64,000 nucleotides of DNA from Methanomicrobiales archaeon. Its GTDB lineage: Archaea; Halobacteriota; Methanomicrobia; Methanomicrobiales; JACTUA01. The DNA lies in NCBI GenBank assembly GCA_030019205.1, contig JASEFH010000005.1, positions 1-64,000 of the forward strand. The letters are read 5' to 3'. Below are positions 38,766 to 47,300 of this stretch, one piece after another; position 1 is the first letter of the stretch, and every line of letters begins with the position of its first letter. The translations under genes were made by a program, and so were the position numbers. The notes under the pieces were generated by a model. That model did not search any database. It was not told the origin of the DNA and was given only the letters and a program-made list of their open reading frames with translations.

Positions 38766-38843
38766 CGGCGGGGCTCGCCCCCCCTGCACGAACGACCATG
38801 TCCGTATGCCGCCCCGACCGAATCCAACCCTGCCTCTAGAACC

Positions 38844-40997: not shown

Positions 40998-41539
40998 AGG
41001 CCGATCCCGCGATGCCGGCGGGCCCGGAGGATGCCGGGTGCGAGATCCTCCAGGCGGTCTTCTGCACCGAAGACCCGTCCCGATTCGTGCAGGAGCTCCG
41101 GCGGCTCGCGCGGACGTTCGGGATCGTGATCGTCAGCTTCGACGCCGAGAAGATGGCCGGCAGGGCCCACGTGGAGGCGGCGCTCCGGCATGCCCGCCGC
41201 TCCTGCAGGCGGGGCGACTGTATCGCCAGCTCCTTCGAGATGGAGGCTCTCCTCTACGCCGCGGGGACCCGGCAGTGCGCGCTGGCCGCCGGGTTCGGGG
41301 TGCACGCCGGGTGGAACCGGGCCTACATCGCTCTCTGCCCGCCGAGCCCGCCGGCTGCCGCGGCGCTCGAAGGTCTCGTTGCCATGGTTGAGGAAGACTG
41401 GGAGATCCTCCCGGCGGAGAAGAGGCGCCGTCTGGCGGATCTCTTCGGCATCACCCCGCAGGAGATCGAGGCGGCCGGGCCCGATCGGATCCCGGACCTG
41501 GTGCTGGAGCGGGTCGCCCTGCTGGACGTCCTGAAGTGA
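40994..41539 (+). CDS. KEOPS complex subunit Cgi121
   Basis: A 181-residue Cgi121-like protein. The core [60 protein letters not shown] and [18 protein letters not shown] follows the CGI-121 fold. The KEOPS complex adds threonylcarbamoyl to ANN-decoding tRNAs, and Cgi121 helps bind the tRNA. The ATG overlaps the hel308 stop (ATGA). The N-terminal 15 residues look non-conserved. Other KEOPS genes are not in this window. Confidence 0.88.
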
Positions 41540-41548
41540 GCGGGCTGT

Positions 41549-42037
41549 CTACCGCTGGGCGTGGCTCAGCATGTGCTGAACGACGGGGATGATCACCCGG
41601 CTGGTCGCCAGCTGCACCGCCTTGGGCGATCCCGGGATGCAGAAGACCGCCCTCTCCCGGAGGATGCCCGCGACGGCCCGCGACAGGATTGCGGACACCC
41701 CGATCTCCGCGTAGCTCATCGAGCGGAATATCTCGCCGAATCCGTCCAGTCTCTTCTCCAGGAGGGGTTCGATCGCCTCGATGGTGCAGTCGTCGTGCGT
41801 GAGGCCGGTCCCGCCGTTGAAGATGATGCAGTTCGACCGATCGGCTGCCCGGAAGAGTTCCGACCGGATCTTCTCGACAGCATCGGGAACGACGGCGTAG
41901 TGCGTCACGTCGATGCCGGCCTTCTCCAACAGGGAGCGGATCGTCTGCCCGCTGAGGTCGAGGTCCGGCGTTCTCGAGCTGGATACCGAGATGATCGCGG
42001 CGGTGATCTTGATGTCCCGTACGTGCCCCGAGTTCAT
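41549..42037 (-). CDS. moaB: Molybdenum cofactor biosynthesis protein MoaB/MogA family
   Basis: A protein of about 162 residues with the MogA-like fold: ITAAIISVSSSRTPDLDLSG at the start, then CIIFNGGTGLTHDDCTIEAI (the conserved GGTG-x-x-xxD loop that binds molybdopterin), and AVFCIPGSPKAVQLATSRVI. It adenylylates molybdopterin in Mo/W cofactor synthesis, needed for formylmethanofuran and formate dehydrogenases. ATG 42037 is preferred; an in-frame TTG at 42067 adds ten residues. Its upstream side faces the origin candidate. Confidence 0.93.
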   Translation of the reverse strand: MNSGHVRDIKITAAIISVSSSRTPDLDLSGQTIRSLLEKAGIDVTHYAVVPDAVEKIRSELFRAADRSNCIIFNGGTGLTHDDCTIEAIEPLLEKRLDGFGEIFRSMSYAEIGVSAILSRAVAGILRERAVFCIPGSPKAVQLATSRVIIPVVQHMLSHAQR

Positions 42038-42115
42038 GTACCGGGATTCGGCGTATTCGGTATTCAATCCGATGGTGGCGAAGGGGCGGTGCGGGGAGCC
42101 GGGGGTTCCGCCGGG

Positions 42116-42137
42116 GGACCCCTTTGTTTCCAGTGGA
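42116..42137 (-). promoter_or_regulatory. Origin recognition box A
   Basis: On the minus strand it reads TCCACTGGAAACAAAGGGG followed by TCC. This is a full match to the archaeal ORB pattern: short dyad around CCA-TGG, A-run, then G-string. The G-string points toward moaB. The 22-nt core differs from box B by a single base and is identical to box D at 45851-45872. Confidence 0.88.
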
Positions 42138-42248
42138 ACGACTGGAGTTCGGGGGCGGTATCTTCCGGTGCGATGGCATGGTGGAGATCCCGTTCCTCCG
42201 CTTCACCTCTACCCCGATCCCGGCGGCGACGATCGACGATCACGGGGG

Positions 42249-42262
42249 ATCATTCGAATGAT
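42249..42262. repeat. 14-bp palindrome in the putative unwinding region
   Basis: ATCATTCGAATGAT is a perfect palindrome followed at once by the AT-rich TTTTAATAATTGAA. It lies between the inverted ORBs, where a duplex-unwinding element is expected. Confidence 0.75.
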
Positions 42263-42311
42263 TTTAATAATTGAAGTGAGAAACCGCTACAATAGAGCAT
42301 TTCATGTATAG

Positions 42312-42338
42312 GGGAAATGATGCACGAGATCATTTCCC
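42312..42338. repeat. Inverted repeat next to ORB B
   Basis: GGGAAATGAT (42312-42321) and ATCATTTCCC (42329-42338) are exact 10-bp arms around a 7-nt loop. The dyad ends four nt before the first base of box B and lies inside the inter-ORB segment. Confidence 0.8.
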
Positions 42339-42342
42339 GTTT

Positions 42343-42364
42343 TCCAGTGGAAACAAAGGGGTCC
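42343..42364 (+). promoter_or_regulatory. Origin recognition box B
   Basis: TCCAGTGGAAACAAAGGGG followed by TCC on the plus strand, with a longer C-run after it. It is oriented opposite to box A, with its G-string toward orc1/cdc6. Confidence 0.88.
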
Positions 42365-42547
42365 CCCCATCATCCGCCCACCACCCGTTGTCGAGGATCA
42401 AAACCTCGCTGCATCGTCATTCTGCCGGAACCAGGAAGAGACGGGGGTTCCGAATCGAACTCGCGGATCGGCCGCAACGGGTGCTGACGAACCAGAATCG
42501 CGGTTCGATCGGCGAACTGCGGTGTAGCCAGCCGGATCCGGAGACGC

Positions 42548-42570
42548 TCCAGTGGAAACCGGGGGGTTCC
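42548..42570 (+). promoter_or_regulatory. Origin recognition box C (variant)
   Basis: TCCAGTGGAAACCGGGGGG followed by TTCC. It keeps the dyad and G-string but has lost the A-rich spacer. It lies about 70 bp before the orc1/cdc6 start, where binding could also autoregulate the gene. Confidence 0.75.
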
Positions 42571-42639
42571 GTCAAACCGATTGGCTTATGAAGACCCGAG
42601 ACACCAACCTAACGAATAGGCAACGCCAGTGTGAATGCC

Positions 42640-43923
42640 ATGGCAGACGAGAGGGAGCGATCAACGGGACTGTTCGACAAGTACCTTACCAATAAGAGCA
42701 TATTCAGGAACCGGGAAGTTCTGCGGCACTCCTACCGTCCCAATATCCTCCCGCACCGCCAGCCCCAGATCGGGGCGGTCGCCTCCATTCTGGCTCCGGC
42801 GCTGAAGAACGAGACCCCCTCCAACATCCTCCTCTACGGAAAGACGGGCACGGGGAAGACGGCGGTGGTGCGCTACGTGGGGGCGGAGCTGGAGAAGGCG
42901 AGCAGCGAGATGGGAACCGTCTGCCGTGTGGTCCACCTCAACTGCGAGGTGATCGACACCCAGTACCGCGTCCTGGCCCAGATCGCCAAGGGGATCGAGG
43001 AGGCCGACGCGGTCCCGAGCGACCGAAGCCGCGCCACGATTCCCATGACCGGGTGGCCGACCGATCAGGTCTACGCCGAGTTGAAAAGCCAGCTTGAGGC
43101 CTCCGTCGGGGTGCTGGTGATCGTGCTCGACGAGATCGACAAGCTCGTCAAGAAGAGCGGCGACGAGACCCTCTACAACCTGACGCGCATCAACTCCGAC
43201 TTGAAGAAGGCCAAGGTCTCCATCATCGGGATCTCCAACGACCTGCGGTTCACCGATTTCCTGGATCCCCGCGTGCTCTCGTCCCTGTCCGAGGAGGAGA
43301 TCGTCTTCCCCCCCTACGACGCCCACCAGCTGCGGGATATCCTCCAGCAGCGCGCGGAGATGGCGTTCGAGCCGGGCGTGCTCGAGGAGGGGGTCATCCC
43401 CCTCTGCGCCGCCCTGGCGGCGACGGAGCACGGGGACGCACGGCGGGCGCTGGACCTGCTGCGGGTCTCGGGAGAGCTCGCTGACCGCGAGAGCGCGGAC
43501 AAGGTGACCGAGAGGCACGTGAAGATGGCGCAGGAGAAGATCGAGACCGACAGCATGATCGAGTGCGTCTCGACGCTGCCGACCCAGAGCAAGGTGGTGC
43601 TCTATGCCATGGTCCTCCTGGACCAGATGGGGAAGAAGATCTTCACGAGCGGAGAGGTGGTCCAGGTCTACCGTGAGGTCGCCAAGCTGCTCGACCTGGA
43701 CATCCTCACCCACCGCCGGATCACGGACCTCGTCTCGGAGCTGAACATGCTCGGCGTGATCAACACCCGGGTGGTCTCCAAGGGGCGCTACGGGCGGACC
43801 AAGGAGATGTGGTTCGACGCGAACACCGCCCGCATCCGCGACGTGATCTACAAGGATCCGCGCCTCTCCGAGGAAAGGTTGATGCAGATAGATGCCAACC
43901 GGTTGAGAGGATTGTTCCGGTGA
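42640..43923 (+). CDS. Orc1/Cdc6 replication initiator
   Basis: A protein of about 427 residues. The AAA+ part has Walker A LLYGKTGTGKTAVVRYVG near residue 70, Walker B VLVIVLDEIDKLVKK, sensor 1 VSIIGISNDLRFTDFLD and sensor 2 HGDARRALDLLRVSGELAD. The C-terminal winged helix covers residues ~320-427 (LDILTHRRITDLVSELNML; GVINTRVVSKGRYGRTKEM). It binds ORBs to load the MCM helicase. A GTG three codons upstream (42631) is an alternative start. The stop overlaps the Lrp gene by 4 bp. Boxes A-C lie directly upstream. Confidence 0.95.
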   Translation: MADERERSTGLFDKYLTNKSIFRNREVLRHSYRPNILPHRQPQIGAVASILAPALKNETPSNILLYGKTGTGKTAVVRYVGAELEKASSEMGTVCRVVHLNCEVIDTQYRVLAQIAKGIEEADAVPSDRSRATIPMTGWPTDQVYAELKSQLEASVGVLVIVLDEIDKLVKKSGDETLYNLTRINSDLKKAKVSIIGISNDLRFTDFLDPRVLSSLSEEEIVFPPYDAHQLRDILQQRAEMAFEPGVLEEGVIPLCAALAATEHGDARRALDLLRVSGELADRESADKVTERHVKMAQEKIETDSMIECVSTLPTQSKVVLYAMVLLDQMGKKIFTSGEVVQVYREVAKLLDLDILTHRRITDLVSELNMLGVINTRVVSKGRYGRTKEMWFDANTARIRDVIYKDPRLSEERLMQIDANRLRGLFR

Positions 43924-44420
43924 TACACGTGGACGAGACAGACCGAACGCTGCTGCATCTCCTGGAGGAGAACAGCCAGACGCCCGTGCAGGACATCGCT
44001 GTGATGCTGAACATCCCGCTTCCGGAGGTTGAGGAGCGGATCCGGAGACTGGAGAAGGCGCGGATCATCCGGAAGTACACGACCATCATCGACTGGGAGC
44101 GCGGCGGAGACGGGGAGGTGGCGGCGATCATCGACCTGAAGGTCAGCCCGGAGCGGAACTTCGGCTACGACAAGATCGCGGAGCGGATCGCCCGCTTCCG
44201 CCAGGTCCGCTCGCTCCACCTGGTCACGGGGGTGTACGACCTCCAGCTCGTGGTCACGGGGAGGTCCATGCACGAGGTGGCCCGGTTCGTGGCAGAGGAG
44301 ATCGCGCCCATGGAGCAGATCCGCGAGACGGCGACCCACATGATCATGAAGACGTTCAAGGAGAACGGACTCCTCTTCTTCGAGAAGGAGTCCGGCGAAC
44401 GGCTCCCCTTCTCGCTCTGA
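43920..44420 (+). CDS. Lrp/AsnC-family regulator
   Basis: A 166-residue protein: N-terminal helix-turn-helix (DETDRTLLHLLEENSQTPVQ; IPLPEVEERIRRLEKARIIR) and a C-terminal RAM ligand-binding domain (EVAAIIDLKVSPERNFGYDK; VRSLHLVTGVYDLQLVVTGR). The start is a GTG overlapping the orc1/cdc6 stop (GTGA), and an aminotransferase gene starts 7 bp downstream. It probably senses an amino acid and regulates the neighbouring aminotransferase. Cotranscription with the replication initiator is unusual enough to note. Confidence 0.92.
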   Translation: MIHVDETDRTLLHLLEENSQTPVQDIAVMLNIPLPEVEERIRRLEKARIIRKYTTIIDWERGGDGEVAAIIDLKVSPERNFGYDKIAERIARFRQVRSLHLVTGVYDLQLVVTGRSMHEVARFVAEEIAPMEQIRETATHMIMKTFKENGLLFFEKESGERLPFSL

Positions 44421-44427
44421 GGTCAGG

Positions 44428-45591
44428 ATGAGGGACTTCGTCTCGAATAGGGCCCGCACCATCCCCCCTTCGGGCATCCGCAGGTTCTTCGACCTGGTGC
44501 AGGACATGGAGGGTGTCATCTCCCTCGGGGTGGGCGAACCCGACTTCTGCACCCCCTGGAAGATCTGCGAGGCGAGCATCTACTCGATCGAGCACGGGCG
44601 CACCTCCTACACCTCGAACAAGGGGCTCCGCCCGCTGCGGGAGGCGCTCGCAGGCCACCTCGCCTCCCGCTACCGCCTGGAGTACGACCCCGAGGAGGAG
44701 ATCATCATCACCAGCGGCGTGAGCGAGGCGGTCGACATCGCGCTTCGCGCCGTGGTGGATCCCGCCGACGAGGTGCTGGTCGCCGAACCCTGCTACGTCG
44801 CCTACGCCCCCGGTGTGACCCTCGCCGGCGGGGTTCCGGTCCCGGTGCCCTGCCGGGCGGAGGACGATTTCCGCCTCACGGCGGATGCCCTGCTGGAGCG
44901 CATCACCCCCCGCACCAAGGCCCTGATGATCAACTTCCCCAACAACCCGACGGGGGCGGTGCTGACCCGCTCCGACCTCGCGGAGATCGCCGACGTGGTG
45001 ATCGACCACGACCTCCTGCTGATCAGCGACGAGGTCTACGCGGAGCTGACCTACGAGGGGACCCATACGGCGGCGGCTTCGATCGACGGGCTGCGGGAGC
45101 GCACCATCACCTTAAACGGCTTCTCCAAGGCCTACGCGATGACCGGCTGGCGCATCGGCTACCTCTGCGCTCCCGCGCCGCTCTGTGCGGCGGCGCTGAA
45201 GATCCACCAGTACGTGATGCTCTGCGCTCCCGTCATGGGGCAGATGGCTGCCCTGGAAGCCCTCCGCTCCGGTGAGGAGGAGAAGAACGCCATGGTGCGG
45301 GAGTACCGCCTGCGGAGGAACCTCTTCGTGGACGGGCTCAACAAGCTCGGGCTCTCCTGCCACGTGCCGAAGGGCGCATTCTACGCCTTCCCCTCCGTCG
45401 CGTCCACGGGGATGTCCGACTTCGAGTTCGCCGAGGCGCTCCTGAAAGAGCAGCGGGTGGCGGCGGTGCCGGGCAGCGTCTTCGGAGCTTCGGGAGCCGG
45501 ACGGATGCGGTGCGCCTACGCCGTCTCCCGCGAGGAGATCCTGACGGCCCTGCGGCGGATGGAGGAGTTCCTCGCCGCGCGGAAGAGGTGA
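44428..45591 (+). CDS. PLP-dependent class I aminotransferase
   Basis: A 387-residue fold-type I aminotransferase of the aspartate/aromatic group: GVISLGVGEPDFCTPWKICE, TSNKGLRPLREALAGHLASR, NFPNNPTGAVLTRSDLAEIA (PLP-side Asn), ISDEVYAELTYEG, and the Schiff-base lysine in NGFSKAYAMTGWRIGYLC. Substrate not determinable: aspartate, aromatic or branched-chain are possible. It follows an Lrp-type regulator by 7 bp. Downstream T-runs at 45613-45632 look like a terminator. Confidence 0.93.
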   Translation: MRDFVSNRARTIPPSGIRRFFDLVQDMEGVISLGVGEPDFCTPWKICEASIYSIEHGRTSYTSNKGLRPLREALAGHLASRYRLEYDPEEEIIITSGVSEAVDIALRAVVDPADEVLVAEPCYVAYAPGVTLAGGVPVPVPCRAEDDFRLTADALLERITPRTKALMINFPNNPTGAVLTRSDLAEIADVVIDHDLLLISDEVYAELTYEGTHTAAASIDGLRERTITLNGFSKAYAMTGWRIGYLCAPAPLCAAALKIHQYVMLCAPVMGQMAALEALRSGEEEKNAMVREYRLRRNLFVDGLNKLGLSCHVPKGAFYAFPSVASTGMSDFEFAEALLKEQRVAAVPGSVFGASGAGRMRCAYAVSREEILTALRRMEEFLAARKR

Positions 45592-45610
45592 GCCGCCTCC
45601 GAGATCCGGT

Positions 45611-45632
45611 TATTTTTCGCGAAGGCTTTTTT
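45611..45632 (+). terminator. T-rich terminator after the aminotransferase
   Basis: TATTTTTCGCGAAGGCTTTT followed by two more T residues: two T-runs within about 20 nt of the stop codon. This is the usual form of an archaeal intrinsic terminator. Confidence 0.6.
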
Positions 45633-45850
45633 CGTGAGTTCTCTTCGGATTTCCCGGACCGGGGATGGTTTGCCGTAGATTTGCGGGCGTGTATGTGGAT
45701 CAATTGAGATCGCGGCACCCAGTTCAGCGATTCTGTGCCGGATTCGATCCTGACACGCGGTATCGGAGTCCGCTCCGGATCCAGAACCGCCGGCTGCCTG
45801 GTGTCAGACATTACGGACAGCCTGCCCCCTGTCCGACAGAATGGGGAACC

Positions 45851-45872
45851 GGACCCCTTTGTTTCCAGTGGA
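45851..45872 (-). promoter_or_regulatory. Origin recognition box D
   Basis: The 22-nt core is identical to box A and in the same orientation. It lies in the 698-bp gap between the aminotransferase and purA, about 3.7 kb from box A. A TTTATATGC element follows immediately at 45877-45885. No gene is supported in this gap. Confidence 0.85.
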
Positions 45873-46063
45873 GATGTTTATATGCTTCGCCCAACTCTGC
45901 GGAAAGTGCGGAGAGTCCTGTGCCAATAATACGGCGTTTTCACGGCCCTGCGGGAAATCCACCGTATATTCTCGGGCATCCTGCAGAGCCCGGCGGGGCG
46001 GGCGATCGGGCGGGCAGCTCGAAAATGCTCGCCGGGATCCCCTGCATCTCCGAAAAAATCCGC

Positions 46064-46077
46064 TTCCACTGGAAATA
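46064..46077 (+). promoter_or_regulatory. Mini-ORB E
   Basis: TTCCACTGGAAATA keeps the ORB dyad and first A residues but lacks the G-string, as in the mini-ORBs described in other archaea. It is about 190 bp from box D in the same gap. Confidence 0.55.
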
Positions 46078-46289
46078 TCGTCGCAGGCGCCGGCAGAAGA
46101 ATGTTGAAAATCGGGGGGGGGGGAGCCCCGCCCGTCCCGAGGGATCTGCGTCCGCCGGCGCGGCCCTGGGACGGGAATGCCCTCCGTCAGGTCTGCGGCC
46201 CCGTCTGCGCCCCGCCGCACCCGGGAATTCGGGGGAGGGACTATGATCAACTATTTCTTCCTGTATCTCCCACACTACATGATAGAACA

Positions 46290-47300
46290 ATGGCTTGTAC
46301 GATCATCGTCGGCGGATTCTTCGGGGATGAAGGCAAGGGTAAGATTGTTGCGCATATTGCAAACCGCGACCGCCCCTCGGTAATCTCGCGGGGTGGCGTG
46401 GGCCCGAACGCCGGTCACACCGTCACGATCGGCACACAGACCTACGGGGTTCGCATGGTCCCCTCCGGATTCGTCTTCCGCGATGCAGACCTCTGCATCG
46501 GGACCGGCGTCCTGGTGGATCCGCGGGTGTTCCTGCGGGAGGTGGAGATGCTCGGGGTGCAGGGGCGGATGTACGTGGACCGGCGCTGCGGGATCATCGA
46601 GGAGGAGCACATCCAGCGGGACCGGGGGAGCGAACACCTGAGCAAGAAGATCGGGAGCACCGGCACCGGCTGCGGCCCGGCGAATGCGGACCGGGTGCTC
46701 CGCCTCTCCCGCCAGGCGAAAGATGTGCCGGAGCTCTCCCCGTTCCTCGCCGATGTCCCCCTGAAACTGAACGCGGCGATGGACGCCGGCGAGAATGTCC
46801 TGCTGGAGGGCACCCAGGGGTTCGGCATCTCCCTCTACTTCGGCACGTACCCCTTCGTCACCAGCAAGGACACCTCCGCCTCCCAGATCGCCGCGGACAA
46901 CGGTGTCGGACCCACGCGGATCGACGACGTGATCGTGGTCTACAAGGCATACCCCACCCGGGTGGGGGAAGGGCCGTTCTCGACGGAGATGTCCAGGGAA
47001 CGGTCCCACGAGATGGGGATCGAGGAGTTCGGGACCGTCACCCACCGCCCGAGAAGGGTCGGTGTCTGGGACGGGGGAATGGCCCGCTACTCCGCGATGG
47101 TGAACGGCTGCACGCAGGCGGCGATCACCGGGATCGACCGGGTGGATCCCGCCTGCGCCGGGGCGACCGAGTACTCGAAGCTCTCCCGCAAGGCCCGGGA
47201 CTTCCTGGCGCAGGCCGAAGAGGATATCGGGGCCCCGATCACGCTGATATCGACGGGTCCGGATATCAGCCATATTATCGACCGCCGTGATGAGATATGA
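46290..47300 (+). CDS. purA: Adenylosuccinate synthetase
   Basis: A 336-residue archaeal short-form enzyme joining IMP and aspartate with GTP on the way to AMP. P-loop: IIVGGFFGDEGKGKIVAHIA at the N-terminus, then GVGPNAGHTVTIG. Mid-protein motifs: STGTGCGPANADRV, LLEGTQGFGISLYFGTYPFV and TSKDTSASQIAADNGVGPTR. The aspartate-binding loop region is GTVTHRPRRVGVWD. The start at 46290 is about 29 nt after a weak CAACTATTTC element. The stop overlaps the Trm112-like gene (ATGA). Confidence 0.96.
   Translation: MACTIIVGGFFGDEGKGKIVAHIANRDRPSVISRGGVGPNAGHTVTIGTQTYGVRMVPSGFVFRDADLCIGTGVLVDPRVFLREVEMLGVQGRMYVDRRCGIIEEEHIQRDRGSEHLSKKIGSTGTGCGPANADRVLRLSRQAKDVPELSPFLADVPLKLNAAMDAGENVLLEGTQGFGISLYFGTYPFVTSKDTSASQIAADNGVGPTRIDDVIVVYKAYPTRVGEGPFSTEMSRERSHEMGIEEFGTVTHRPRRVGVWDGGMARYSAMVNGCTQAAITGIDRVDPACAGATEYSKLSRKARDFLAQAEEDIGAPITLISTGPDISHIIDRRDEI

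Follow-up and report, generated by a model that had tools for sequence, protein, structure and literature searches.

In Sulfolobus oriC1, which belongs to the Orc1-1 type, the unwinding region next to the Orc1-1 gene is AT rich and lies between inverted ORBs, which carry G-strings. Similarly, the orc7 origin of Halobacterium NRC-1 and oriC1 of Haloarcula hispanica combine an inverted repeat of ~30 bp, ~190 to 205 bp of AT-rich DNA and an orc7-type gene (PMC1906834, PMC3936714). In another origin of H. hispanica, oriC2, downstream ORBs restrain the origin (PMC3936714). For the Methanomicrobia, the ORB motif has been published as TCCA[GC]T[GT]GAAA[CT][AG]A[AT]GGGGT (PMC4164010). The origin type, this motif and the adjacency to orc1 are already established, while views on how origins are unwound by Orc1/Cdc6 have not clearly converged, according to a review (PMC5333045).

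Here, we analyzed a window of 64 kb (the whole stretch of DNA under study) from a Methanomicrobiales archaeon. It contains a locus that shares the Sulfolobus arrangement as well as the inverted repeat around AT-rich DNA and the orc7-type gene of the two haloarchaeal origins. We consider it very probable that this is the main chromosomal oriC, of the Orc1-1/Orc7 type, of a Methanomicrobiales methanogen, with the roles proposed below for Orc1, boxes C and D and a hairpin beside box B. The features of the locus are collected in Table 1.

Table 1. Features of the putative oriC locus in the 64-kb window
Feature	Position	Strand	Description
ORB A	42119..42137	-	TCCACTGGAAACAAAGGGG, then TCCCC; distal arm of inverted pair; fits published Methanomicrobia ORB regex
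A-B spacer	42138..42342	.	candidate duplex-unwinding element; least stable part 42251-42310
14-bp palindrome	42249..42262	.	ATCATTCGAATGAT; carries hexamer AATGAT/ATCATT, also in hairpin arms
Inverted repeat (hairpin)	42312..42338	.	GGGAAATGAT-N7-ATCATTTCCC; position-conserved element of relatives
ORB B	42343..42361	+	TCCAGTGGAAACAAAGGGG, then TCCCC; proximal arm of inverted pair
Variant ORB C	42548..42566	+	TCCAGTGGAAACCGGGGGG; in orc1/cdc6 promoter; ortholog of relatives' TATA-abutting box
orc1/cdc6 initiator gene	42640..43923	+	427 aa from ATG; GTG 42631 = alternative start
Lrp/AsnC-type regulator gene	43920..44420	+	second gene of conserved cassette
Class I/II aminotransferase gene	44428..45591	+	third gene of conserved cassette
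ORB D	45854..45872	-	downstream satellite box; aminotransferase-purA gap; identical to A over 19 nt
Degenerate half-box E	46066..46076	+	CCACTGGAAAT, G-string lost; ~192 bp from D

The layout proposed in the first-pass annotation was confirmed. The two near-identical opposed boxes reported ~205 bp apart are exactly so placed, although the repeat that they form is longer than stated (26 nt instead of 22), with 25/26 positions complementary (GGGGGACCCCTTTGTTTCCAGTGGAA / TTCCAGTGGAAACAAAGGGGTCCCCC) and 203 nt between the arms. The third, variant box that had been located ~70 bp ahead of orc1/cdc6 was found 73 nt before ATG 42640 (64 nt before GTG 42631), and the 14-bp palindrome between the boxes is real, as is the hairpin with 10-bp arms, for which the distance of four nucleotides to box B was verified. 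The A/T-richest part of the gap does lie between A and B, where the least stable 60-mer of the gap falls within the lowest 0.07% of the window. Box D and half-box E, on the other hand, had been missed; D is located beyond the orc1-lrp-aminotransferase cassette. The G-string of ORB A is directed away from the A-B spacer, and boxes B and D match the published motif as A does. Allowing up to 3 mismatches, four copies of the core were found in 64 kb, compared to 0.02 expected by chance. In the relatives, the GGGGT of A and B tends to be followed by another G-tract, which the C, D and hel308 boxes do not have; the window differs in showing C-tracts after both A and B.

These boxes are restricted to one place in the genome. 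Across 2.73 Mb, TCCASTGGAAACNNNGGGG was matched without mismatches only by A, B, C and D, all of them in a 3.8-kb region that includes orc1/cdc6. Cores scattered along the chromosome had been set in advance as the result that would speak against an origin, and no such scatter appeared. The same was observed in 24 complete or nearly complete genomes of the order, where ORBs cluster at orc1 in most cases and the reversed control pattern gave zero matches. We also scanned 119 loci (1.45 Mb; relatives, the locus itself and 80 named genomes, some genomes being included twice) with a weight matrix trained only on the upstream-gap sites of the first locus set, at a threshold of ≥14 bits. Of 507 matches, 348 fell in the gap upstream from orc1, another 115 between the aminotransferase gene and purA, and 40 immediately before hel308, which leaves 4 at other places; 0.5 Mb of shuffled control gave one match at the same threshold. 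The upstream boxes usually follow the order -,+,+. The locus in the window has ORBs of the lineage consensus with at least one inverted pair. A search against a plasmid collection gave no match. Many relatives (L083-L110 among others) have an ORB-like box (GTTTGCAGTGGAAATGAAGGGGTATAC-ATG) directly before hel308, 24 to 6 nt before the start codon, and this box stays with hel308 even where the gene is found 10 to 23 kb from orc1; the hel308 of the window lacks it (no such box at 38820-38843). As the GGGGT of this box may double as a ribosome-binding site, control of hel308 by Orc1 is only a suggestion.

The DNA enclosed by the inverted pair is AT rich and unstable. The 205-bp spacer has a GC content of 0.517, compared to 0.643 for the window, and in 66/77 loci of relatives it is likewise between A and B that the upstream gap has its least stable 60-mer, at a median of 62 nt to the left of B. 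In the relatives, the GC content drops to 0.29 in the 80 nt preceding B, versus 0.57 for the loci overall. The hexamer AATGAT/ATCATT occurs 15 times in 64 kb, and 4 of these copies are located in the spacer, where they form two dyads. As a structural element, the 14-bp palindrome was discarded, since it folds no better than shuffled sequences (z=-0.35).

The adjacent initiator gene is of the Orc1-1/Orc7 class. Its product belongs to the PRK00411.1-3 class (614.6 bits, with a cut-off of 501), has AAA+, lid and C-terminal winged-helix domains, and among solved structures is closest to the archaeal initiators 2qby_A (Cdc6-1) and 2v1u_A. The gene order hel308 - orf - moaB (reverse) - gap - orc1 - lrp - aminotransferase - gap - purA is kept in most loci from 6 families of the order Methanomicrobiales, the named relatives being Methanoculleus, Methanofollis, Methanolinea, Methanoregula and Methanocalculus.

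Since the genome itself, in 73 contigs, was too fragmented for a disparity curve, we sampled two complete relatives of different families (G013 and G022). In both, the A-T and M-K disparities switch at the syntenic orc1 locus and again near the antipode. In G013 (54 × 20 kb), the replichores were best split at 360 kb by both A-T (p=0.0018) and M-K (p=0.0012), close to orc1 at 355.8 kb, and the A-T maximum and minimum were found at 343 kb and 1342 kb, with the antipode at 1346 kb. In G022 (40 × 20 kb), the A-T maximum and the G-C minimum were in the sampled stretch beside orc1 (p=3e-5 and 0.005, respectively). These p values are rough, as samples were treated as independent. In these two relatives, the skew check suggested in the first-pass annotation pointed to orc1 by A-T and M-K, and in G022 also by G-C, but not by G-C in G013, which was uninformative alone and has its minimum at ~47 kb, away from orc1. 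Disparity within contig C5 alone (137 kb) was uninformative. Altogether, the uniqueness of the ORBs, the match to the published motif and the disparity switch in relatives support the original interpretation as a replication origin.

Along these lines, the Orc1/Cdc6 encoded by the adjacent gene would bind ORBs A and B, in opposite polarity, and direct MCM onto the AT-rich spacer, from where two forks would leave. The ORBs might instead act mainly as Orc1 operator sites (for orc1, the cassette and purA), with replication starting elsewhere. The location of box C in the orc1 promoter, abutting the TATA in relatives, of D in the aminotransferase-purA gap and of ORB-like boxes at the start of hel308, outside the origin gap, would fit such operators. 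Nevertheless, we regard this as very improbable, given that the inverted A/B pair encloses the least stable DNA, that disparity switches at the locus in two relatives, that the genome has no other ORB cluster and that D remains by the end of the aminotransferase gene when purA moves away. An unlikely but less remote alternative is that a second orc1/cdc6 paralog has an active origin of its own, this one being only one of several. The paralog is present in this genome (contig C4, 47.0 to 48.2 kb) and in most relatives, and in some relatives of the Methanoculleus type a single isolated ORB (in most cases TCCAGTGGAAATCAAGGGG) is found 3 to 7 kb away from it (G043:C1:1807959, G038:C1:632896, G048:C1:944365, G058:C2:301209). 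Against it, the disparity in two relatives fits one origin, and in this genome no ORB was found within reach of the paralog, which was accordingly rejected here as an ORB origin. A short inverted repeat (TTTGCTCTGCAGGGCAAA, L170 4990-5015) is found just upstream from this paralog in place of ORBs.

Within an origin at orc1, boxes C and D would have regulatory functions. In most loci of relatives, the box nearest to orc1 is found 76 to 101 nt before the start, and a TATA-like motif (GGGGTTATA or GGGGTTTATA) follows its consensus without a gap. The box abuts the place where TFB/TBP would bind, which suggests autoregulation. Box C most likely lets Orc1 repress its own gene. In the window, C is degenerate (CCGGGGGG) and the TATA motif of the relatives is missing behind it, so autoregulation may be weakened in this species. 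D-type boxes were found ~3 kb downstream in 59 of the 113 loci where the aminotransferase-purA gap was covered, and they were absent from Methanoregulaceae-type loci. They keep near the aminotransferase end where purA moves away. Relatives have 1 to 5 downstream boxes, while here there is one full box (D) and a half-box; in the Methanoculleus type, the station is an inverted pair ~217 bp apart, with a full box at the position of E. By analogy with oriC2 of H. hispanica, box D, ~3 kb downstream, most likely titrates or fine-tunes the initiator. A run of eleven G (46113-46123) is present in the aminotransferase-purA gap of the window, just after half-box E.

The hairpin before B is a conserved element and not an accident of the sequence of the window. 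Here, its arms (42312-42321/42329-42338) are 10 bp each with a loop of 7, its dyad centre is 17.5 nt from B, and as single-stranded DNA it folds with -8.6 kcal/mol (z=-4.1). Of 89 non-redundant loci, 40 have a perfect inverted repeat (arms of ≥8 bp) on the TCC/unwinding side of B, compared to 5/591 flanks when all remaining ORB sides are taken together (Fisher p=3.6e-34, a value overstated because the loci are related). The repeat centre is at a median of 19 nt from the TCC of B (interquartile range, 17.5 to 19.5), while the arm sequences differ between genera. When mismatches were allowed, 66% of loci were paired at B, versus 3% at A and C. Among 18 loci of the Methanoculleus type selected for having the repeat, 93.7% of cells were paired, and the 10 cells with both sides changed were more than in any of 500 shuffles, a count biased upward by that selection. 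In the lineages tested, genomes have one copy of the element at the origin and no more than one at another place; 3/9 Methanoculleus-type genomes lacked the exact pattern searched. Outside the order, it was present in 6/6 loci of family f7 and 1/2 of f12 among the loci listed, and was not seen in the haloarchaeal-type loci tested (assigned as such from their ORBs and Orc1). A terminator was discarded, as there is no consistent T-run between the hairpin and B, and an Rfam search of 41500-46400 gave no match.

Palindromes form more readily in AT-rich DNA, and a perfect arm of ≥7 bp is missing in ~44% of loci, as would be expected if the repeat were a chance structure. However, this is scarcely credible, because other ORB flanks and Markov controls mostly gave 0 to 5%, the distance to B is fixed, 42 distinct arms occur in 50 loci, and compensatory changes are seen within one genus (in loci chosen for having the repeat). 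The inverted repeat would rather be a separate origin element on the unwinding side, either a hairpin or cruciform that helps to open the DNA adjoining ORB B or to mark it, or else a dyad to which a dimeric origin factor with lineage-specific half-sites binds. A hairpin or cruciform where the unwinding region meets the ORB would fit an element that is near-unique and that keeps its pairing and position although its letters vary freely between genera. A dimeric binder is in turn suited by half-sites that are stable within genera, by arm 7-mers that recur in the same origin (40, versus 16 ± 5 for shuffled arms) and by the four copies of AATGAT that build two dyads in the spacer of the window. 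We hold the reading by form and the reading by sequence to be about equally probable. It is quite possible that the palindrome is the site of a dimeric DNA-binding protein, such as a nucleoid protein or the Lrp encoded in the cassette, and not a hairpin, which would be compatible with an origin. Yet the tested palindromes are near-unique per genome, unlike the sites of a regulon or nucleoid protein, the half-sites are wholly different between genera, even within Methanoregula-type loci, and the element is also found in phylum-level relatives where the same search did not detect the Methanomicrobiales neighbour genes. Our tentative proposal, in which we have somewhat less than even confidence, is that a third, previously undescribed origin module exists in the Methanomicrobiales as well as in one or more other groups of the phylum. 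It would be an inverted repeat of free sequence, under selection for its palindromic form, with its dyad on the unwinding side at ~17 to 20 nt from the ORB. Acting as a hairpin/cruciform or as the dyad of a lineage-specific origin factor, it would mark the place of MCM loading or first priming.

In the open-access papers searched, neither the hairpin next to B nor the D station nor the box at hel308 was found to be described, which is weak evidence, since most subscription papers were outside the search. A palindrome at a fixed distance with changing letters provides a defined DNA element with which form and sequence can be tested against each other in origin opening. Likewise, the three ORB stations (orc1, the downstream station and, in relatives, hel308) represent a testable map of the putative Orc1 regulon.

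Compared to known systems, the locus has the same ORB motif and orc1/cdc6 adjacency as the Methanomicrobia origins predicted in DoriC and by Ori-Finder 2. The closeness of its initiator to the Cdc6-1 of 2qby adds to the likeness with the Sulfolobus oriC1 type, from which it differs in that the A-B distance is variable among relatives. Sulfolobus also has a ucm element, bound by UBP, midway between the ORBs, whereas here a palindrome of variable sequence lies directly beside one of them. Judged by position and conservation, no such conserved motif midway was found, the palindrome beside B not being conserved in sequence between genera. The enhancer of H. hispanica is a G-rich inverted repeat with one arm per ORB, in contrast to the local hairpin at a single ORB described here. 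As in H. hispanica oriC2D, there are ORBs on the downstream side, beyond the initiator gene, although oriC2D has 11 of them directly behind cdc6E with proven negative control, while here one box and a half-box, for which a regulatory role is only predicted, are located behind two further genes.
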